A stretch of 9,309 bases of DNA from contig JAITAE010000131.1 in the NCBI GenBank assembly GCA_031284295.1, positions 1 through 9,309 of the forward strand, given 5' to 3'. Both the position numbers and the translations under genes were made by a program. The DNA comes from Spirochaetaceae bacterium (GTDB lineage: Bacteria > Spirochaetota > Spirochaetia > Treponematales > Breznakiellaceae). Shown here piece by piece: positions 1 through 9,309 of this stretch. Numbering within the stretch: the stretch's first letter is position 1; each line of letters starts with the position of its first letter. Below the pieces are notes generated by a model, which was not told where the DNA came from, made no database searches, and saw only the letters and a list, made by a program, of their open reading frames with translations.

Positions 1-155
1 AAAACAACCTTTCCGAACCCGGAACGGAGCGCGTCAAAAACCGAATAATCAAGCAGCGCCTCGCCCGCCGCGCCAATCTTATCCATCTGCTTAAGTCCGC
101 CGTAGCGGCTTCCCATGCCGGCCGCCAGCACAACAAGGACAGGTTTTCGTTTCAT
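1..155 (-). CDS. Sugar-phosphate nucleotidyltransferase, N-terminal part (cut by window edge)
   Basis: The reverse strand from the ATG at 155-153 encodes 51 residues before the window ends, so the C-terminal part lies outside. Residues 10-23 read LAAGMGSRYGGLKQ. This is the nucleotide-binding signature (G-x-G-x-R followed by a conserved K) of the NTP_transferase fold, which joins a nucleoside triphosphate to a sugar phosphate to make an activated NDP-sugar. The preceding residues (VLVVLAAG) form the first beta strand of that fold. Only the N-terminus is visible, so the sugar and nucleotide cannot be told. An ATG at 159-157 is out of frame. No strong ribosome binding site is seen just upstream. 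The gene is divergent from the HIT gene, so both promoters should lie in 156-401. Family assignment is good; specific function is open. Confidence 0.8.
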   Translation of the reverse strand, partial: MKRKPVLVVLAAGMGSRYGGLKQMDKIGAAGEALLDYSVFDALRSGFGKVV

Positions 156-189
156 GCATAAAGGGTAAACGCAAAAAACCCCGTATTCA

Positions 190-223
190 ATACCCCGCCG
201 CCCCGCCAGCCCCACCATTGGGG
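190..223. repeat. GC-rich palindromic repeat, copy 1
   Basis: The 12-base core ATACCCCGCCGC (190-201) occurs again at 6153-6164 and, with one change, at 6272-6283. Here it is followed by a small hairpin with arms cccca (210-214) and tgggg (219-223) and then tttt. A second small palindrome, gtatt-c-aatac, spans 183-193 and overlaps the core. All three copies lie in non-coding DNA and are tied to hairpins. I read them as members of a dispersed palindromic repeat family (REP-like). A role as a terminator or mRNA end signal is possible but unproven. Confidence 0.45.
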
Positions 224-401
224 TTTTAAACACGCGGGTATGTCAGTTGTTATCCTGGTCATCCCTCATTCTTAAATCAGCGTTACCCTGCAAACTTCGA
301 AAGTATACCATAAATCGCAGGTTTTCCGGCGAGGAGTAATACAAAACTCATGCGCGACAAACTGCTGGCGGAAACACATTGATAAGGGTATACTAACGTT
401 T

Positions 402-746
402 ATGAATGATTGCATTTTTTGCGGGATTGCGGAGGGCGCCGTTCCTTCCAAAAAGATTTTTGAGGATGACGAAATATTTGCATTCCACGATATTGAGCCT
501 AAGGCGCCGGTTCATTTTCTTGTGATTCCAAAACGGCACATACAAAACATTATGGAATGCGGCGCCGGAGACGGTCTTTTGTTGGGGAAGCTGCTGTTAA
601 AGGCGCGGGAACTTGCCTGTGAACTTGGCTGCGGCGAGGGCGGGGCGCGTTTTGTGATAAATTGCAAGGCTGACGGCGGACAGACGGTTGACCACTTGCA
701 TATCCATGTTTTGGGCGGACGCAGACTTGGCTGGCCTCCAGGTTAA
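402..746 (+). CDS. HIT-family (histidine triad) nucleotide hydrolase, HinT-like
   Basis: The 114-residue protein has the full length expected of a HinT-type histidine triad protein. These small dimeric cytosolic enzymes hydrolyse nucleoside phosphoramidates and aminoacyl-AMP. Residues 98-104 read HLHIHVL, the H-x-H-x-H triad, with H100 expected to be the nucleophile. The upstream block HDIEPKAPVHFLVIPKRH (29-46) is the conserved nucleotide-binding part. C4 and C7 (CIFC) match the N-terminal zinc-binding pair found in many bacterial members. The C-terminal WPPG ending is typical of the family. The ATG at 402 is the only sensible start, but the nearest Shine-Dalgarno-like bases (aaggg, 384-388) sit 13 bases away, further than normal. 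A TATACT box at 389-394 lies directly upstream, so a nearly leaderless transcript is possible. The gene leads the plus-strand cluster with the exported protein and aroDE. Physiological substrate is unknown. Confidence 0.93.
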   Translation: MNDCIFCGIAEGAVPSKKIFEDDEIFAFHDIEPKAPVHFLVIPKRHIQNIMECGAGDGLLLGKLLLKARELACELGCGEGGARFVINCKADGGQTVDHLHIHVLGGRRLGWPPG

Positions 747-759
747 GGCGCGCCTGAGT

Positions 760-1266
760 TTGCGGCGCAAATTCCGCCCGGTTTTCGTATTTTTGGGTAT
801 CGCCGCTGCCGGTGTTTTGCGCGCCGATGGGCAGGAAGCGCCGGCGCATTTACAGCAGACGGCGCTTAAGGCGGCGCTTAAAGAGGCCCGCGCGGTGGCG
901 GCGCTTGACGCGGTGAGCCTTATAGGAATGAGCGTTTCGGAACTTATTGAAAACTTTGGGGCGCCTAATACTGTTTACACTTCGCGGGGCATTGAGCCGT
1001 GGCAGGACGATGTTGTTTTTGAGTATTCCGGCGTTGATTTTTACATATATAGGGACAAGGTTTGGCAGCTTGGCCTTGATGCGGGCTATGGCATAGAAAA
1101 GGGCGACCCCCGCGCGGCGGTACTTTTGGTGCTGGGCGAGGGTGCGCAGGATAAAGAAAAATATATTTTAGGAAGACTGCGCGACACAAGCTGGCCCCTT
1201 GAATGGCGTTTCAATATAGAAAACGGCAAGGTGAGCGCAATATACCTATACAGAACGGATTATTGA
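760..1266 (+). CDS. Unrecognised probable exported protein
   Basis: I do not recognise a named family. The frame is open from before 688 and an ATG exists there, but that start would overlap the HIT gene by 59 bases and place a long tail before the signal sequence. The TTG at 760, 13 bases after the HIT stop, gives a 168-residue protein that begins with a classic signal peptide: basic RRKFR, then the hydrophobic stretch PVFVFLGIAAAGVL, then a polar region (RADGQE). I therefore expect export to the periplasm or envelope. The mature part has an alanine-rich helix and then, from about GMSVSELIENFGAP, a compact region rich in aromatic beta strands (VVFEYSGVDFYIYRDKVWQL). The G-M-x-x-x-E-L-x-x-x-F-G-x-P opening recalls SmpA/OmlA (BamE)-like domains, but that is only a resemblance. 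The ribosome site is weak (aagg, 745-748). Its stop TGA directly abuts the aroDE ATG, implying coupled translation. Confidence 0.7.
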   Translation: MRRKFRPVFVFLGIAAAGVLRADGQEAPAHLQQTALKAALKEARAVAALDAVSLIGMSVSELIENFGAPNTVYTSRGIEPWQDDVVFEYSGVDFYIYRDKVWQLGLDAGYGIEKGDPRAAVLLVLGEGAQDKEKYILGRLRDTSWPLEWRFNIENGKVSAIYLYRTDY

Positions 1267-2754
1267 ATGACAAAGGTATGTCTCTGTTTGACAGGAAAAA
1301 CGATAGACCGGGATTTGGATATGCTCAAAAAGTACCGTCCCTATATCGATATAGCGGAACTGAGGGTGGATTGCCTTTTACACGAGGAGCGCTTTTCGAT
1401 ACGGCGTTTTCCTGAACTGGCGGGCCTCCCCGTCATTCTGACGATACGCCGCCGCAGCGACGGCGGCAGCTTTGAAATGGGTGAAAGTTCGCGTATCACC
1501 CTTCTATCCAGGGCGCTGGCCTTTGCCGAGGTTGATGTACGGCGTAACTTCGCGTATGTTGACCTTGAGGAGGAGTTGGAATTACCCGGCCTGGAGGAGG
1601 CCGCCCGCACCTTCGGCACCAGGATAATCCGCTCATTTCACAGTTTCAAAGGGCCGTATGATAAACTGACCGGCAGGATACGTTCCATGTACCGTGTGGG
1701 GGACGAAATCGTCAAGGCGGCAATTAAGGCGGATAGCCTTGACGATGTTACACAACTGTTCAGAATATCCCGTGAACTGGGTGACATGGAAAAAATTCTG
1801 CTGTGCATGGGGGATAACGCGGTTTGTACCCGAATTCTGTCTGAAAAACTAGGCTCTCATGTCTGCTATACCTCGGTTAAAGGAGAGGCTGACTTTCCTC
1901 CCGCCGCTTCCGGACAGCTTGATCCCGTTGAACTGGCGGACTTGTACCGTTTTCGTTCCATCACCAAAAACGTGAAAATCTATGGCATACTCGGTTATCC
2001 GCTAAAGGCGACATCCAGCCCTTCCTTCTTTAACAAGGTGTTCGGACGCGAAAACAAGGATGCTGTTTATATTCCGTTTCCTTCGCAGACGCCGGATAAG
2101 TTTTTCAGTCTTGCCGATGAGATAGGGCTGCTGGGCGCTTCAGTTACCGTGCCGCATAAGGAGGCCGTGTTGTCGCGCCTGTCATCCATGTCCGGGCAGG
2201 TTCAATCTGTCGGGGCCTGCAACACGATTGTGCGTACCGAAAACGGCTGGGGCGGCTATAATACCGACACGGAAGGCTTTTCCGGTTCGTTGTTGGATTT
2301 TACAAGGTGCAAAGATTTTAAGGGAAAACGTATAACGATAGTTGGCGCGGGCGGCGCGGCGCGGGCTGTGACATCCGAGATTCACCGGCTCAAAGGAAAG
2401 GCGCTGATTCTGAACAGAGGCAAACTCCGCGCGGAGCAGCTTGCCGGCATTTACGACTTTGAATACGGCGAATTCGATCCGGACGGCCTGAAGCGCATCA
2501 AGAAATTCTCAGACATAATCGTTCAAACAACGTCTGTAGGTATGGAGCCGGATATCACGGACGACCCGTTAAGCGGCTATCAATTTACCGGCAAAGAAGT
2601 GGTGATGGATATTATCTACAAACCGGAACGTACCGCGATGCTGGAACGCGCCGCCAAGGCGGGTTGCCGTGTTCTGAACGGCGCGGATATGCTGCTGCGG
2701 CAGGCCAAACTACAGTATCAGCATTTCTTTGGCAGAAAGTATCCATTTGAATAG
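1267..2754 (+). CDS. aroDE: Bifunctional 3-dehydroquinate dehydratase (type I) / shikimate dehydrogenase
   Basis: This 495-residue fusion catalyses two consecutive steps of the shikimate pathway: 3-dehydroquinate to 3-dehydroshikimate, then NADPH-dependent reduction to shikimate. Residues 1 to about 230 are a type I AroD barrel. ELRVD (31-35), RSFHSF with H125 as the catalytic histidine, and K150 in IVKAA as the likely Schiff-base lysine are all present. Residues from about 237 to the end are AroE. SVTVPHK carries the catalytic K298; GACNT (316-320) and YNTD with catalytic D334 follow. GAGGAAR (360-366) and NRGKLR (383-388) form the NADP site, and the closing NGADMLLRQA block is present. In the substrate-entry motif, SPSFFN has phenylalanine where many AroE proteins have histidine. 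The ATG directly follows the previous stop with no strong Shine-Dalgarno, so translation is probably coupled. The fusion is full length with no gap. Similar fusions are known in plants, chlamydiae and some spirochaetes. Confidence 0.95.
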   Translation: MTKVCLCLTGKTIDRDLDMLKKYRPYIDIAELRVDCLLHEERFSIRRFPELAGLPVILTIRRRSDGGSFEMGESSRITLLSRALAFAEVDVRRNFAYVDLEEELELPGLEEAARTFGTRIIRSFHSFKGPYDKLTGRIRSMYRVGDEIVKAAIKADSLDDVTQLFRISRELGDMEKILLCMGDNAVCTRILSEKLGSHVCYTSVKGEADFPPAASGQLDPVELADLYRFRSITKNVKIYGILGYPLKATSSPSFFNKVFGRENKDAVYIPFPSQTPDKFFSLADEIGLLGASVTVPHKEAVLSRLSSMSGQVQSVGACNTIVRTENGWGGYNTDTEGFSGSLLDFTRCKDFKGKRITIVGAGGAARAVTSEIHRLKGKALILNRGKLRAEQLAGIYDFEYGEFDPDGLKRIKKFSDIIVQTTSVGMEPDITDDPLSGYQFTGKEVVMDIIYKPERTAMLERAAKAGCRVLNGADMLLRQAKLQYQHFFGRKYPFE

Positions 2755-2846
2755 GGTCGACTTAAAAAACCCGCGTGTTCGGCATTAAGACCGCCGGTAT
2801 GGACTCCCGCTTTCGATGATCTCTCCCCGCCTCTGGCGATAAAGCT

Positions 2847-2878
2847 CGAAACCTGCCCAAAGGACACGGGAAGTTTCG
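2847..2878. terminator. Hairpin in the convergent gap between aroDE and the PHP gene
   Basis: An inverted repeat with arms cgaaac (2847-2852) and gtttcg (2873-2878) encloses a second short ccc/ggg pairing (2856-2858 with 2868-2870). It lies immediately beyond the stop codon of the minus-strand PHP gene and between two converging genes, where a terminator is expected. Neither side has a clean run of T, so an intrinsic terminator is only plausible. The rest of the 124-base gap shows nothing else I can name. Confidence 0.35.
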
Positions 2879-3772
2879 TTATGTCGCGGTATAGGCATAA
2901 GAGGCGGCAAGCCCGGCCTTCTCCAGAAACGAGTCGCCTATGGGCTGGCCGCCGCCTGTGTACCCCAGGCGGCGGCCAGGGCGTTTTTCGCCGTGAAAAT
3001 CGCTGCCCGCCGTAACAAGCAAGCCCAGACTTCCGGCTAAATCTTCCAGCCGCCGGCAGACGCGCTCCGTCGCTACGGGATGCCAGGCCTCTATGCCGTC
3101 CAGCCCCTGCACTTTCAGTTCGGCAAGTATGCCGGGCAGCCTGCCCCATGAAACGTACAGTGTTGTCGGATGGGCAAGCACGGTGAGGCCGCCCGATTCG
3201 TGTATCGCGGCGGCGGCCCGGCCAAAATCGGAACCGGCCTTTTGTATGTAAAACGGCTTGCCCTTGCCCAGAAAACTGTCAAAAGCGGCCTGTATACTCC
3301 GTACCTTGCCAAGCTTAACGAGGTACTGTGCAAAATGCGGCCTCCCTATGCAGCCGCCGCCGGCCAGACAGCAGAGTTCTCCGTAATCCGCGTCCACGCC
3401 GGCCTCGCGCATCTTGCCGATTATCAATAAATTACGCCGTTTACGTTCCAGCTTGATCTCCATCATCAGTCCGCTAAAGTCCGGAGACGGCTCTTTGAGA
3501 CCCAAGCCCAGAAGGTGGAATTCACGGAAGGGACTTGCGCCGCCGGGCTTGCCGCCCACCGCCCTGTATTGCCAGTTAATATCAATTTCCGTACCGGGTA
3601 TAAGTTTGATGCCGAGGCGGGCCGCCTCGGATTCCGCTTCGGGAACGCCGTCTATCGTGTCATGGTCGGTAAGCGCCATCGTATTTATGCCGGCATCGTG
3701 TGCGGCGCACACCAATTCCGCGGGACTCAGGTTGCCGTCGGACGCGCTGGAATGGGTATGAAGGTCTATCAC
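2879..3772 (-). CDS. PHP-domain metal-dependent phosphoesterase, TrpH / RNase AM type
   Basis: The protein (297 residues) has all the metal-ligand motifs of a PHP phosphoesterase: DLHTHSSASDG (3-13), TDHDT (35-39), GTEID (60-64), an internal histidine at 86, GRPHFA (143-148), AHP (200-202) and GSDFHG (256-261). This order and length match the TrpH/YciV group. The E. coli member of that group (RNase AM) is a 5'-3' exonuclease that trims RNA 5' ends and degrades short oligonucleotides. Substrate here is inferred from family only; a nucleotide or sugar-phosphate phosphatase activity is an alternative. The start is GTG at 3772-3770. It overlaps the upstream TGA stop in a GTGA arrangement, so its translation is coupled to the zinc-ribbon gene. 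It is the last gene of the groEL-side cluster. No signal peptide or membrane segment is seen, so it is cytosolic. Confidence 0.9.
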   Translation of the reverse strand: MIDLHTHSSASDGNLSPAELVCAAHDAGINTMALTDHDTIDGVPEAESEAARLGIKLIPGTEIDINWQYRAVGGKPGGASPFREFHLLGLGLKEPSPDFSGLMMEIKLERKRRNLLIIGKMREAGVDADYGELCCLAGGGCIGRPHFAQYLVKLGKVRSIQAAFDSFLGKGKPFYIQKAGSDFGRAAAAIHESGGLTVLAHPTTLYVSWGRLPGILAELKVQGLDGIEAWHPVATERVCRRLEDLAGSLGLLVTAGSDFHGEKRPGRRLGYTGGGQPIGDSFLEKAGLAASYAYTAT

Positions 3773-4182
3773 CGGAGTTTTTTCGCCTTGCTGCCGCGCT
3801 TCCCGCCGCTTATACAGTGTACGCAGCCCTGCACCCGCACCTCCGGCTTGCCGGGAGTCTGCCAGATGCGGGCTACCAGGTATTCACCGGTGGAAAGCTC
3901 TGCCCCGCAAACGGGGCAGAGCCGCCGCCTTTCTCCGTCCAGGCAGTATCCGCACCCTGAAATATGCAAAAGTCTGTAGGGCCGTCCGCTCGGTGGAAGA
4001 ATTTTTGATTTAACATTATCGCCTTTTTCTAATCGTGCGGCGCAGATTGGACACGTATGAGCGCCTACCCGGCCATTTTCGGGGATAGCCGTCGTACCCT
4101 TACAGGCGGACACTGTACCATCCGCATTTTTACCGCGTCCCGGAAAAAATGAAAGGTATAAAAATAAAAAAATCGCGGCCAA
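3769..4182 (-). CDS. Membrane-anchored double zinc-ribbon protein, family not recognised
   Basis: From the TTG at 4182-4180 the protein has 137 residues, but the true start is uncertain. The frame is open right back to the groEL stop (4224-4222), and the codons between extend the hydrophobic segment from 15 to about 27 residues. No ATG or GTG exists there, only CTG at 4218 and 4209. The N-terminus is a single membrane helix. The rest is polar and basic, with two similar cysteine modules: C44-x2-C47 with C77-x2-C80, and C89-x2-C92 with C120-x2-C123. Each has a CPxC first knuckle (CPIC, CPVC) and a GCxxC second knuckle (GCGYC, GCVHC), about 27-29 residues apart, as in zinc ribbons. A basic tail (GGKRGSKAKKLR) ends the protein. 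It is probably an inner-membrane protein with a metal-binding domain; a redox or nucleic-acid role cannot be chosen. It lies between groEL and the PHP gene and overlaps the latter by 4 bases. Confidence 0.65.
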   Translation of the reverse strand: MAAIFLFLYLSFFPGRGKNADGTVSACKGTTAIPENGRVGAHTCPICAARLEKGDNVKSKILPPSGRPYRLLHISGCGYCLDGERRRLCPVCGAELSTGEYLVARIWQTPGKPEVRVQGCVHCISGGKRGSKAKKLR

Positions 4183-4221
4183 AAAAAGTATGACCGCGAT
4201 TCCAAACAGACTGTTCAGGGT

Positions 4222-5883
<1,662 letters not shown>

Positions 5884-5889
5884 TTAACC

Positions 5890-5913
5890 CTGTCCCCGTC
5901 GATAACAGGACAG
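5890..5913 (-). promoter_or_regulatory. Hairpin in the groEL 5' untranslated region
   Basis: Inverted arms ctgtcc (5890-5895) and ggacag (5908-5913) surround a 12-base loop, with an alternative register cctgt/acagg (5889-5893 and 5905-5909). It ends about nine bases before the groEL Shine-Dalgarno (5874-5880). It could affect mRNA stability or translation of groEL. It is not CIRCE and does not pair with the ribosome site, so it is not a standard RNA thermometer. Confidence 0.3.
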
Positions 5914-5930
5914 TTTCTAACGCGGGACAT

Positions 5931-6146
5931 GGTTTACCGTATTTTGATTATGTGCCGCCAGACGACGGCTTTTATGAATACAATGCTCCTTTATTCAAAA
6001 AAAGTCAATACGCTCGCCAGGCGGCACAGGCCGCTTTTAATACGCCGGTGGATTCGGTTGTTGTCACTACCGAATTTTGGGTGATGTTCCAAAATTATTG
6101 GATCAGAGACAGCCTTCCCAAAAACCAGACGTTCATTCTGCTTTGG
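5931..6146 (+). pseudogene. Possible gene remnant without a start codon
   Basis: The plus-strand frame starting at codon 5931 reads as plausible protein for about 70 residues, including YFDYVPPDDGFYEYNAP, FNTPVDSVVVTTEFW and VMFQNYWIRDSLPKNQTF. Codon choice resembles the real genes and the composition is protein-like. The only ATG in this frame (5859) lies over the groEL start and ribosome site and is not credible. The first later candidate, GTG at 5952, has no ribosome site. The reading ends by running into the palindromic repeat at 6145, which contributes the residues GLIPRRSAA. I infer a 3' fragment of a lost gene with its distal end replaced by the repeat; chance open frame is the alternative. 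I do not recognise the protein. Confidence 0.3.
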
Positions 6147-6174
6147 GGTTTAATACCCCGCCGCTCTGCGGCGG
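6145..6174. repeat. GC-rich palindromic repeat, copy 2
   Basis: Two overlapping hairpins are visible: ggggt (6145-6149) with acccc (6155-6159), and a perfect 7-base stem ccgccgc (6158-6164) with gcggcgg (6168-6174) around a 3-base loop. The core ATACCCCGCCGC (6153-6164) is identical to positions 190-201. The two stems are mutually exclusive in part. This is the best-formed copy of the repeat family in the window. Confidence 0.5.
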
Positions 6175-6274
6175 TTAGAATCAGTAACACTTACAAAAAA
6201 ATGGTAGTAAACCCCCATACTATAAATTTCCTTACCCGATCGAACCTAGTAAACAATGCAACGCTTACATGATA

Positions 6275-6309
6275 CTCCGCCGCAAAGTTTGCGACTTCAG
6301 GGCGGGGAG
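6275..6309. repeat. GC-rich palindromic repeat, copy 3 (diverged)
   Basis: The core ATACTCCGCCGC (6272-6283) differs from the other two copies by one base. It is followed by the near-perfect palindrome cgcaaa-g-tttgcg (6281-6293). An outer pairing of ccgcc (6277-6281) with ggcgg (6301-6305) is also possible. It lies about 120 bases from copy 2 in the same orientation. Confidence 0.4.
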
Positions 6310-6494
6310 GTTCATTTTGACTTTAGAAATGCGGCTATGATATTTATAAAAAACGGTATCTATTCCGTCACCTGCGGATATACAGATAAAACCGGCGGAA
6401 TGAAGGAGATTTTGACCCGAAAGGGACTGACGGGGAAAGGCGGCTTTAATCATCAGGGACCTGGCGGGTTGAACCCGGGACGGAAACGCGGAGC

Positions 6495-6593
6495 GGCGCA
6501 AGGGATAGAAGCGGAATAACGCCGCCCGGCGCCCAGCGCCATGCGGCGTTATTATAGCGGATAGCCCGACCGTCCCGCAGGGACGGATGCGCC
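6495..6593 (+). ncRNA. Structured RNA candidate, Flavo-1-like three-stem element
   Basis: Three stems nest as a compact junction. Closing stem: ggcgca (6495-6500) with tgcgcc (6588-6593). First arm: an 11-base perfect stem (6515-6525 with 6543-6553) continued by ggcgc (6528-6532) and gcgcc (6536-6540) after a 2x2 internal loop. Second arm: ccgtccc (6570-6576) with gggacgg (6580-6586) around a 3-base loop. The unpaired joints read agggatagaagcgg (6501-6514) and tatagcggatagcccga (6553-6569), so AGCGGA occurs on both sides of the first arm. From memory, AAGGGAUnGnAGCGGA...UAUAGCGGAUAGCCCGACC with these two hairpins is the layout of Flavo-1 RNAs, found mostly in Flavobacteria and in some spirochaetes. 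I could not run a covariance search. Function of that family is unknown; a small RNA is presumed. A terminator pair is the alternative, but neither hairpin is followed by a good T run. Confidence 0.55.
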
Positions 6594-6614
6594 CAATTTT
6601 AAAAACAAAGGGAT

Positions 6615-6641
6615 GGTTCTAAAATGCCGGATTTTTGAACC
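6615..6641. terminator. Hairpin downstream of the PAP2 gene
   Basis: Symmetrical stem: ggttc (6615-6619) with gaacc (6637-6641), one T/T mismatch, then aaaat (6621-6625) with atttt (6631-6635), loop gccgg. On the minus strand it lies 57 bases past the PAP2 stop and is followed after a few bases by ctttgttttt, so it may end the dapB-dapA-PAP2 transcript. The T run is displaced from the stem, which makes this a moderate call. A tandem 9-base direct repeat (acacaatcg, 6642-6650 and 6651-6659) adjoins it. Confidence 0.4.
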
Positions 6642-6698
6642 ACACAATCGACACAATCGACCGGACAAGCGCACCAGGCCGTTTTGCCCGACCTTGAA

Positions 6699-7547
6699 TC
6701 AACGCCAAGCGCCGCTGCGGGTGAAATATTTGTGGACCAGGCTTTTTGCCAGCGCAAAAGAAGCCAGACCGAGCGCCGCCCCTACCGTTACATCCGACAG
6801 AAAATGACGGCCATATATCATGCGTGAAACCATAACCGTAAGCCCGAAAAGCAGGGCCAACGCAAGTATCAGACCGGTGTATTTTTTCAGACCGTCAATG
6901 AAGCGGGGCCAAAAGGCAAACCAGACGGCGCACATAGCGGCAAAGGAATGTCCCGATGGGAACGACTTAAAATCGTCCGCTCCCCCGCCACCCTGCGGGA
7001 TGTACCATTTTGTAAACTGTTCCGCGATGTTATCCATAGTATAGAAAGTATAGAATCGTTGCCTGCCCCAAATCGTTTTGAGTGCCTGCAAAATCGTATA
7101 GCCGAACGTAAGCGCTATGAGCCCGGTCAGGGCCACCGCCAACAGCTCGTCAGGCTTTTTTTTCGCGAACGGCAGCGCCGCAAGGAAAAATAAAAACATG
7201 ACAACGCACGCAATGACGGCCAAAACAGCGGCGGGAGCTTTGCTTCTCTGTACGTACACATAAACTACCGTGCCGTACAGAAAGACGGCGATACAGAGAA
7301 GCGCGGCGAAAACCGTTATTACCGTGGAAGTTTTCATCGTGCGCCGCTTTTCAAACAGCACGGCAAACAGCATCGCGGGCGCTATGAGCTCGACCCCGAT
7401 CTGCGGCAACATCCCGGCGGCCTCAAAGAATTCGGAAAAAGAGCTATTTGGGTTGTAAAGCCATACGGCTATCTGTAAATCAAAGAAAGACGCGACAACA
7501 AGCAAAACACCGGCTGTAATAGATAATAAAATTATATACCTTTTCAT
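6699..7547 (-). CDS. PAP2-superfamily integral membrane phosphatase
   Basis: The protein has 282 residues and several hydrophobic segments (roughly 5-22, 51-66, 75-97, 105-126, 135-155, 203-214, 225-241, 253-270), so it sits in the inner membrane. The three PAP2 phosphatase motifs are present in order. Motif 1 is K157-x6-R164, in KTIWGRQRF. Motif 2 is FPSGH (196-200). Motif 3 is SRMIYGRHFLSD (241-252), with S-R-x5-H-x3-D, where H248 is the expected nucleophile. Motif 1 ends RF where RP is usual; the rest is canonical. Substrates of the family are lipid phosphates such as phosphatidic acid, phosphatidylglycerol phosphate or undecaprenyl pyrophosphate, and sequence alone does not choose. The ATG at 7547-7545 overlaps the dapA stop (ATGA), indicating coupled translation. 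A link to cell-wall lipid recycling is inference from this context. Confidence 0.9.
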   Translation of the reverse strand: MKRYIILLSITAGVLLVVASFFDLQIAVWLYNPNSSFSEFFEAAGMLPQIGVELIAPAMLFAVLFEKRRTMKTSTVITVFAALLCIAVFLYGTVVYVYVQRSKAPAAVLAVIACVVMFLFFLAALPFAKKKPDELLAVALTGLIALTFGYTILQALKTIWGRQRFYTFYTMDNIAEQFTKWYIPQGGGGADDFKSFPSGHSFAAMCAVWFAFWPRFIDGLKKYTGLILALALLFGLTVMVSRMIYGRHFLSDVTVGAALGLASFALAKSLVHKYFTRSGAWR

Positions 7548-8446
7548 ATTATTTGAGGCTGTATTCCCAGCGCCTTTACCGCCTCGCGCACTATTTTTTC
7601 GTTTGCTTCCGATATGCGGCCAAGCGGAAGCCGTGCCGGGCCCGCAGGCAGGCCGGCGAATTCCATAGCTCTCTTTATCGGGACAGGATTTGTTTCGGCG
7701 AACGCCGCTTTGGTGAACCGCAGCAATTCGTAGTGTATGACACGCGCCGTTTCAAAATCGCCGGCCAAACCCGCCTTCACGAGCGCCGCGACTCTTGCCG
7801 GTACAAGGTTGGATATGACCGATATGACGCCGTCGCCACCCAGCGCCAGCAGCGGCAATGTCAGCGCGTCATCGCCGGAAAGCACGGCAAAAGCGCCGCC
7901 CCCCCGTCTTTTTACCGAGTTTATCACGTCCGCCATCTGGTTTATGTCACCGGACGCTTCTTTTACTCCGGCTATGTTAGGGATTTCGGCGAGCCGTTCC
8001 ATCAGCGGCGCGGGTATGTTTCTGCCGGTCCTGGAAGCTATGTTGTAGACGATTACCGGTATGCCAACAGCGGCCACCGCTTCGAAGTGCCGTAACAGGC
8101 CCTCGTCGTTAGGTTTGTTGTAGTAGGGGGTAACGACAAGGGCGGCGTCCGCGCCTAAATCCTTCGCGCGCTTTGTATAAAGCACCGCGTGTTTTGTGGA
8201 ATTTGACCCGGAGCCCGCGATTACCGGCACACGCCCGCCGGCTTCCTTCATAACGATCTCAAGCAGGCGCTCCTCCTCACACTCCTCAAGCGTCGGAGTT
8301 TCACCCGTTGTGCCTATCGGAACAAGCCCGTCTATGCCGTTTTCAAGCTGAAACTGTACAAGCCGCCTAAATCCGTCAAAGTCAATATCGCCGTTCCCCT
8401 TCATCGGCGTAATAAGCGCGGTAAACGCTCCTTTAAATGTTGTCAT
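7544..8446 (-). CDS. dapA: 4-hydroxy-tetrahydrodipicolinate synthase
   Basis: This cytosolic enzyme condenses pyruvate with aspartate semialdehyde, the committed step to diaminopimelate and lysine. Starting at the ATG 8446-8444 it has 300 residues, normal for the family. Key features are GTTGE (45-49), TPYYNKP (106-112), Y134 in VIVYNI, R139, and the Schiff-base K162 in GVKEASGD (160-167). The SGDD...GGDGVISVISN block (190-213) is also typical. The frame stays open upstream to an ATG at 8533, but that would add 29 residues with no family match and overlap dapB. The chosen start has a Shine-Dalgarno AAGGA five bases before it. The gap to the dapB stop is 20 bases and the PAP2 gene overlaps its end by 4, so all three genes form an operon. 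N-acetylneuraminate lyase relatives are less likely because dapB is adjacent. Confidence 0.95.
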   Translation of the reverse strand: MTTFKGAFTALITPMKGNGDIDFDGFRRLVQFQLENGIDGLVPIGTTGETPTLEECEEERLLEIVMKEAGGRVPVIAGSGSNSTKHAVLYTKRAKDLGADAALVVTPYYNKPNDEGLLRHFEAVAAVGIPVIVYNIASRTGRNIPAPLMERLAEIPNIAGVKEASGDINQMADVINSVKRRGGGAFAVLSGDDALTLPLLALGGDGVISVISNLVPARVAALVKAGLAGDFETARVIHYELLRFTKAAFAETNPVPIKRAMEFAGLPAGPARLPLGRISEANEKIVREAVKALGIQPQII

Positions 8447-8466
8447 ATCTTCCTTATCACTGTTTG

Positions 8467-9258
8467 TTATGCCAAAACGTCGTCCATCGTAAAGACGCCG
8501 TGCCTGCCTGCCTTGATGTTTCTGTCCAGCCATTCCGCCGCAATCAGGGCGCCGGAAACCAGGCCTTCGCGGTTACGGGCCGTATGCCTTATCTCTATGC
8601 TGTCCGCCGCGCTGTCAAAAATCAGGCCGTGTATACCGGGTTCAGCGCCCACACGGAGACTAGAAAAATGCAGTTCGTCCGGTTCCGGCGGCCTGTCAAG
8701 TTTGTCCCATACGACCTTCGTCTTGCGTTTCATGTTTTCAAGGACGCTGGCGGCAATCATTTTTGCCGTACCGGACGGGCTGTCCGCCTTTTGTTTGTGA
8801 TGCGTCTCGTAAGCGCCAACATCGTACTCTCCGTAGGGGTCTATCAGCGCCGCGCAGTATGCCGCGATCCGGTAGAATATATTAACGCCCAGGGAAAAGT
8901 TTGATGCCCACAGCAACGAACCTTGATTCCGTTCAAACAGTGCGCTAAGTTCATCCAGCTTGTCATACCAGCCGGTCGTACCGACAAGCGCCGGTATTTT
9001 TTTCCCCGCGAAGGTTCGTATGTTCCGCACCACCGCGTCCGGGTGGCTAAAATCAACCGCAATGCAGCTGTCTATCGAACCATTCTGTTCTTCAATGCCG
9101 TCAATCGTGCTAAAAATACCGGCGCCTATATCGCTCGCCGTTTTCCCGGCTGCCGCAACGACGGGGTCTACCACGGCGGCTATCTTGTGCCCTCTTTCCA
9201 CCGCGCGCTTTTCGATAAGCCGCCCCATCTTTCCGTACCCGCTTAGTATTATCTTCAT
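8467..9258 (-). CDS. dapB: 4-hydroxy-tetrahydrodipicolinate reductase
   Basis: DapB reduces the DapA product to tetrahydrodipicolinate with NAD(P)H in the cytosol. From the ATG at 9258-9256 the protein has 263 residues. The dinucleotide site is GYGKMGR (7-13), close to the usual G-x-x-G-x-M-G. DFSHP (69-73), VGTTGW (92-97) and ASNFSLGVN (118-126) follow. The catalytic and substrate block ETHHKQKADSPSGTA (151-165) contains H153 and K157. The C-terminal IRHTARNREGLVSGA region is also typical. An upstream ATG at 9297-9295 is in frame and the frame remains open to the window edge, but it would add 13 residues ahead of the first beta strand, so I reject it. The Shine-Dalgarno is weak (GGACGG three to four bases before the start). 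The promoter must lie at or beyond the window's right edge. Confidence 0.95.
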   Translation of the reverse strand: MKIILSGYGKMGRLIEKRAVERGHKIAAVVDPVVAAAGKTASDIGAGIFSTIDGIEEQNGSIDSCIAVDFSHPDAVVRNIRTFAGKKIPALVGTTGWYDKLDELSALFERNQGSLLWASNFSLGVNIFYRIAAYCAALIDPYGEYDVGAYETHHKQKADSPSGTAKMIAASVLENMKRKTKVVWDKLDRPPEPDELHFSSLRVGAEPGIHGLIFDSAADSIEIRHTARNREGLVSGALIAAEWLDRNIKAGRHGVFTMDDVLA

Positions 9259-9309
9259 TTTACCGTCCGTTTGTTTACAGTAAGCGTTCCTCCCCATAAT
9301 TTCAATGCC

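Follow-up and report, generated by a model that had tools for sequence, protein, structure and literature searches.

REPINs are described as doublets of REP sequences that form hairpins (Bertels and Rainey 2011, PMC3116915), and Flavo-1 RNA goes back to Weinberg et al. 2010 (PMC2864571). The passages of the literature that name Flavo-1 give no function for it, and our search found no paper that treats Flavo-1 as mobile or as part of a three-way junction. For Flavobacterium psychrophilum, the passage concerned reports Flavo-1 hits that lie sense or antisense indistinctly, many of them beyond transcribed regions, and several 5' transcribed regions that coincide with such hits (PMC9723704). Here, we analyzed a Flavo-1-like element in a stretch of 9,309 nucleotides from a Spirochaetaceae bacterium, referred to as the window (assembly GCA_031284295.1, contig JAITAE010000131.1, positions 1 to 9,309). 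Our preferred reading, held at about even confidence, is that the element is a dispersed copy of a three-way-junction family containing Flavo-1, and that it represents a REPIN-like folded-DNA mobile repeat served by enzymes in trans rather than a small-RNA gene.

Structure of the element in the window

The layout that the original prediction had drawn from the letters, a closing stem around two hairpins, was recovered in the predicted fold. The closing stem pairs 6495-6500 with 6588-6593, the arms of the first hairpin measure 11 bp (outer, 6515-6525/6543-6553) and 5 bp (inner, 6528-6532/6536-6540), and the second hairpin lies at 6570-6576/6580-6586; the motifs AAGGGAT (6500-6506) and AGCGGA (twice, 6510-6515 and 6556-6561) are present as well. 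Complementarity "beyond chance" was an apt description, as the RNA fold reaches -56.7 kcal/mol (z -5.69) and 0 of 200 shuffles were as good. The reverse strand also folds as RNA (z -3.88), and both strands of 6495-6595 fold as single-stranded DNA (z -5.98 and -5.85 compared to shuffles). The 3' boundary of the unit was placed at 6595 by R1, an independent covariance model described below. A short ORF that runs into the element (6256-6519) matched no Pfam family at E 0.001. The features are as follows.

6495-6595, + strand: whole three-way-junction element; sole full-length R1 match (60.9 bits), Rfam Flavo-1 spanning 6488-6575 (31.2 bits)
6496-6500, + strand: 5' strand of the closing stem P1, GCGCA, pairing with 6588-6592; many P1 types covary between copies
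6588-6592, + strand: 3' strand of P1, TGCGC; fold, covariation and R1 match
6502-6567, + strand: P2, long hairpin with two internal loops, the part represented by Rfam's Flavo-1; fold, Rfam alignment, covariation at the GGG/CCC and TA/TA steps
6508-6510, + strand: internal loop 1, 5' side GAA, opposite GGA at 6559-6561; fold and Rfam alignment, letters fixed by the search pattern
6513-6515, + strand: internal loop 2, 5' side GGA, opposite ATA at 6554-6556; fold and Rfam alignment, partly fixed by the search pattern
6515-6553, + strand: variable hairpin tip of P2, 11 + 5 bp in the window copy; sequence varies among copies while the arms remain complementary
6570-6586, + strand: P3, short hairpin; fold and R1 match
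6593-6595, + strand: conserved 3' end CC-A after P1; base frequencies in 99 copies with P1 found

Relationship to Flavo-1

The window copy matched the Rfam Flavo-1 model (RF01705) from end to end (positions 1-76 of 76, 31.2 bits, E 8.6e-5 over 461 bases), in the structure of P2 as well as in the consensus. This score is below the gathering threshold of 42 bits, and the window contains no Rfam match at gathering level. Flavo-1 copies above the gathering score were found in 4 of 11 genomes of the genus and matches at E 0.001 in 10 of 11, compared to 0 of 14 control genomes. At E 10, matches appeared in 10 of the 14 controls, none exceeding the cut-off, and weak Flavo-1 matches therefore carry little meaning. 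The Rfam model exceeded its threshold in 9 of 18 Bacteroidota loci picked by sequence pattern; four of five Flavobacterium loci scored 71-80 bits and the fifth 44.

The resemblance to Flavo-1 proposed in the original prediction was largely right with regard to the full-length alignment, the congener copies above threshold and the 60.9 bits obtained with R1, the window copy itself staying below the gathering score. Among the outcomes that were to count against the prediction (no Rfam hit, no covariation in relatives, conservation in this strain only), covariation and occurrence elsewhere were both observed, and the Rfam match of the window copy fell short of the curated score. As a whole, the interpretation is partly supported.

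A junction family in two phyla

R1 was built from 16 Bacteroidota copies only and includes the closing stem and the third hairpin, which are absent from the Rfam model. These copies are 16 of 21 extracted rows; L090 was omitted before alignment, and L078, L086, L129 and L131 after the first alignment (P3 absent, or misaligned). In the window, R1 matched the element and nothing else, at full length with P1, P2 and P3 (60.9 bits, E 6.1e-14). This is the strongest membership result for the window element because the model contains no spirochaete sequence. Copies on the Bacteroidales plasmids examined scored 61.7-78.7 bits, and matches in other spirochaetes were weaker (14.7-57.8 bits, some not significant).

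Scanning the species-genome collection for an exact pattern yielded at least 108 stretches holding at least 109 matches. Judged by title, the matches listed (80 records) comprise 47 from Bacteroidota and 33 from Spirochaetota; one of them, L091, lies in coding sequence and looks like a chance match. Viral contigs contained 0 exact pattern matches, and phage records gave no match to one Bacteroidota element. The anatomy shared by both phyla is P1 - A - P2 (two internal loops, variable tip) - P3 - P1' - CC - A-rich, and most family copies have P1, P3 and the conserved CC and A-rich end in common beyond P2. P1 was found by rule in 99 of 116 copies and absent in 17. In these 99 copies, the 3' end reads CC in 85-90%, followed by A in 61-69% over the next three positions; outside P1, the 5' flank is random, and an A-rich run of about a dozen bases follows on the 3' side.

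The stems covary. Among 114 distinct copies, a count in which one position (e-4) is restricted to A or T by the search pattern, the pair beside the first loop switches between A-T (64) and T-A (46), and a pair of the lower stem is G-C in 76, C-G in 31 and T-A in 2. P1 is fully paired in 77 of the 114, compared to a mean of 32.5 (maximum 40) when 5' strands are swapped. In the 16 aligned Bacteroidota copies, double changes were found in 38 cells versus 11.7 (sd 2.4) in shuffles, a count that leans towards the hand-drawn structure of R1.

Genomic distribution and context

Pfam names near the element are HIT protein, dehydroquinase/shikimate dehydrogenase fusion, PHP protein, chaperonin (groEL), PAP2 protein, DHDPS (dapA) and DapB. 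The element sits in a 0.8-kb gap separating groEL from the PAP2 gene, about 630 bp from the groEL start, and the PAP2-family gene intervenes between it and dapA/dapB. The special interest that had been attached to groEL and a dap operon as neighbors was not borne out, as the position is not conserved: with R1, none of the congeners' 5 PAP2 and 9 groEL loci shows the element at the corresponding place (several loci being cut by contig ends). The window copy is one of many dispersed copies, which occur in both orientations and in unrelated contexts, and this argues for a mobile repeat rather than one RNA locus. One congener locus (L178) has a weak R1 match (20.8 bits) past the opposite end of groEL. 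A second repeat-like stretch is present in the window at 6150-6320 (TTTAATACCCCGCC ... AACCTAGTAAACAATGCAACGCTTACATGATACTCC ... GGGGAGGTTCATT), with near copies in L191, L204 and L013 as well as within the element of L023/L195.

At E 0.001, R1 matches numbered 24 in the own draft genome; the ten congeners had 11, 2, 6, 5, 46, 0, 5, 1, 123 and 5, the genomes being incomplete drafts with 150 candidates scored in each. Among 296 Spirochaetota genomes, surveyed under stricter filters with 15 scored candidates each, 9 exceeded the Rfam Flavo-1 threshold, in 7 of 139 genera. Context was assessed for 158 distinct copies (simple ORF calls, 19 duplicates removed). Only 22 of them (14%) are inside ORFs of at least 110 aa, compared to 81% of 3140 random places; 37 are at contig edges, 18 in divergent and 20 in convergent gaps. 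In gaps between tandem genes, 31 copies lie on the same strand and 30 on the opposite strand (p 1.0), indicating no strand preference. As for recurrent neighbors, the widest cluster was an ABC-type protein in 7 loci, which is not specific, and a serine recombinase was found in 5 loci, at 327-440 bp from the element in four and at 1928 bp in the fifth.

In 40 copies of the congener with 123 matches (G009), other shared hairpins stand upstream of about half, downstream similarity is rare, and the common part is the bare unit only. The hairpin trains upstream of these elements (L220-L259) consist of perfect hairpins, for example TCAACGCGC...GCGCGTTGA. Some of the nine genomes over the Rfam threshold are treponeme-sized and complete; there (L280-L283), large repeated open frames begin with the element, its tip being much longer at 70 nt or more. 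These frames look RHS-like, although one of them matched no family in Pfam. A shortened D12-type adenine methylase frame (PF02086) in L292 (1389-2182) has its end overlapped by the element, and a DpnI-family frame (PF06044) follows immediately. The genome G039 contains another intergenic repeat of about 100 bp besides Flavo-1 (query 493-603, some 30 places).

Carriers of the element

Plasmid records matching one Bacteroidota element numbered 79, mostly from Bacteroides, Phocaeicola and Parabacteroides, and 48 were typed conjugative. In two examples of Bacteroidales plasmids, the element adjoins a resolvase-family gene, and the sequence left of its 5' edge differs between plasmid relatives. The Bacteroidales plasmids L182 (4001) and L185 (3001) are common from the first base of the element on and carry different modules to the left; in L185, a LuxR-type frame terminates within the element.

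In the own genome, 8 of 22 copies examined are flanked by both CTAGTATCC-like and GGATACTAG-like ends of an IS630-type miniature transposon (MITE) and 6 more by one end. Units with both ends have unrelated flanks, their two ends being 199-255 bp apart. The left part of this MITE gave 31 matches in the own genome and the end pattern 39, with 0 for the reversed control. Broken pieces of an IS630-family transposase were identified in two units sharing the MITE left end (L327, 286-690; L325, 1505-2091). The two best pieces matched NF033545 at E 5.3e-8 and 1.3e-14, which is below the curated cut-off, and 217 relatives were found, many named transposase. IS630-type elements are known for TA or CTAG targets. 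One G009 copy (L220) has flanks similar to the MITE ends. Where a MITE copy has no complete element, remnants of the element persist (L196, L214, L217) or the join lies just beyond its edge (L208); such copies look like internal deletions. The window copy (L008) has neither MITE end, its 12/27 and 11/23 matches being at shuffle level.

Folded DNA or structured RNA

If the pairs were kept in RNA, G-U would be expected far above A-C. In the tips of the own genus and the listed spirochaete segments (63 of 68 distinct segments, 5 without symmetric arms being skipped), we counted 919 Watson-Crick, 9 G-T, 11 A-C and 22 other pairs, and P1 of 109 copies gave 532, 3, 9 and 1, respectively. All 93 tips (37 of 130 skipped, arms not symmetric) contain 1195 Watson-Crick, 12 G-T, 40 A-C and 40 other pairs, the A-C number being inflated by one conserved C-A position (40/114). 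For tRNAs of the same loci, a small control of 12 in which ARAGORN favours scorable pairs, G-T accounted for 26 of 275 and A-C for none. The low wobble could alternatively stem from recent copying or hairpin-templated correction, and the covarying stems are what Rfam would read as RNA.

These counts bear on the reading ranked next, namely that the element is a structured RNA, either a small RNA that acts in trans or an mRNA element for transcript ends or stability which, being nearly palindromic, would work from either strand. Strong covariation over the whole junction, the classification of Flavo-1 as an sRNA gene in Rfam and the F. psychrophilum 5' transcribed regions mentioned above (PMC9723704) are in line with such a role. 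However, G-T is no commoner than A-C in the stems, copies show no strand preference, the number of matches ranges from 0 to 123 per genome in one genus, and copies reside within a MITE and on plasmids; we thus consider an RNA role unlikely, and less likely than a folded-DNA mobile repeat. The latter carriers would also suit a fold without a role of its own that is passively carried along by MITEs, plasmids and other repeats, as would the fact that eight of 22 own copies share one IS630-type MITE and that other hairpin repeats adjoin about half of the 40 G009 copies. We regard passive cargo as improbable, given that junction and loops are kept in two phyla and on different carriers, with compensatory changes, and that the bare unit is all that the examined G009 copies have in common.

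The folded-strand logic and the variable tip, together with the resolvase-family gene on Bacteroidales plasmids, the serine recombinase in five loci and the divergence of plasmid relatives left of the 5' edge, are reminiscent of a site for a site-specific recombinase, be it folded and attC-like or of the resolvase/res kind. None of the 11 genomes yielded an integron integrase at E 1e-20 though, P1 types vary with no fixed GTT/AAC, both orientations occur, and no resolvase or recombinase neighbor recurs at most loci, which makes a recombinase site very improbable.

A folded-DNA mobile repeat, our preferred reading, is consistent with the fold, the anatomy in two phyla, the mostly intergenic places, the missing strand preference and the 0-123 matches per genome of the genus. 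The near absence of wobble, the random 5' flank, the IS630-type ends around some own copies, the plasmid matches and the sense-or-antisense hits in F. psychrophilum (PMC9723704) also speak for it. On this reading, the element would act and spread as folded DNA, a miniature element moved by enzymes in trans. A nuclease may recognise the folded single strand, and the retained mismatched loops may mark the strand. The MITE-borne copies were probably moved by an IS630-type enzyme; the window copy, a bare unit, lacks the MITE ends. Clean empty sites were absent among the plasmid rows listed, the own MITE copies, the congener groEL/PAP2 loci (cut contigs) and the relatives of G039 (too diverged), and transposition of the bare unit is therefore a putative step.

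Search for a driver

We found no clear correlation of RAYT/Y1 genes with copy number (Spearman 0.45, p 0.16 for R1 counts, n = 11; 0.54, p 0.08 for Rfam Flavo-1 counts, n = 11), and RAYT/Y1 was rejected as driver. A strong IS200-like subset gave 0.64 (p 0.035 uncorrected), a correlation we do not rely on because none of 30 Y1 loci examined contained a Flavo-1-like motif. G009, with its 123 matches, has one broken IS200-like gene. Unusually many RAYT-like Y1 genes were observed in G010 and G001 (47 and 19 matches), which have few Flavo-1 copies. The A-rich 3' side had raised the idea of spread through RNA, which was also rejected, as no reverse transcriptase was found at E 1e-6 in the two richest genomes, G005 and G009.

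Comparison with known systems

As a more tentative extension, Flavo-1 might be no RNA family but the visible arm of a widespread class of mobile DNA in Bacteroidota and Spirochaetota, a junction of about 100 nt with pairing at the DNA level that would be moved as a folded strand by a RAYT-independent enzyme, with plasmids and IS630-type MITEs as vehicles. Seen as part of a multicopy, strand-neutral, plasmid-borne junction repeat, Flavo-1 ceases to be an orphan "sRNA" and poses a question about mobile elements that can be tested. It also serves as a warning that covariation pipelines can file mobile DNA hairpins under RNA genes. A simple filter that might be tried on other orphan families is to set the G-T cells of covarying stems against the A-C cells.

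The window element and Flavo-1 RNA have in common P2, including both internal loops, and the sequence GAT-W-GAAGCGGA ... AGCGGA-W-AGC. The window element differs in that its junction is extended by P1, P3 and the CC-A end, all left unpaired by the 76-position Rfam model, and in that the present evidence favors a DNA repeat over the sRNA gene of the Rfam class. The CGTC-tagged palindromic repeats are likewise dispersed palindromes, reported in the passage concerned from five phyla including Bacteroidetes and Spirochaetes (PMC3733652), whereas no conserved CGTC tag was noticed at either end of the present unit. IS630-type MITEs correspond in so far as their ends, which also accompany the IS630-family transposase pieces, bracket 8 of 22 own copies; the window copy, other own-genome copies and nearly all G009 copies examined lack such ends. 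Integron attC sites fold from a single strand, have a variable tip and retain mismatches, as does the present element. The integrase missing from all 11 genomes at E 1e-20, the varying P1 types and the lack of a fixed GTT/AAC core set it apart from attC sites.

REPINs, according to the passages of the paper concerned, are extragenic, have many copies, conserved ends, a foldable spacer and compensatory changes and are presumed to be non-autonomous (PMC3116915). The present element is a three-way junction of about 100 nt with another sequence, and no link to a RAYT (Y1) transposase was found in the 11 draft genomes, which are incomplete; because of this missing link we call it REPIN-like rather than a REPIN. 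Being multicopy and extragenic, with conserved ends, a variable folding spacer and compensatory changes, it appears to have its closest working analogue in the REPINs.
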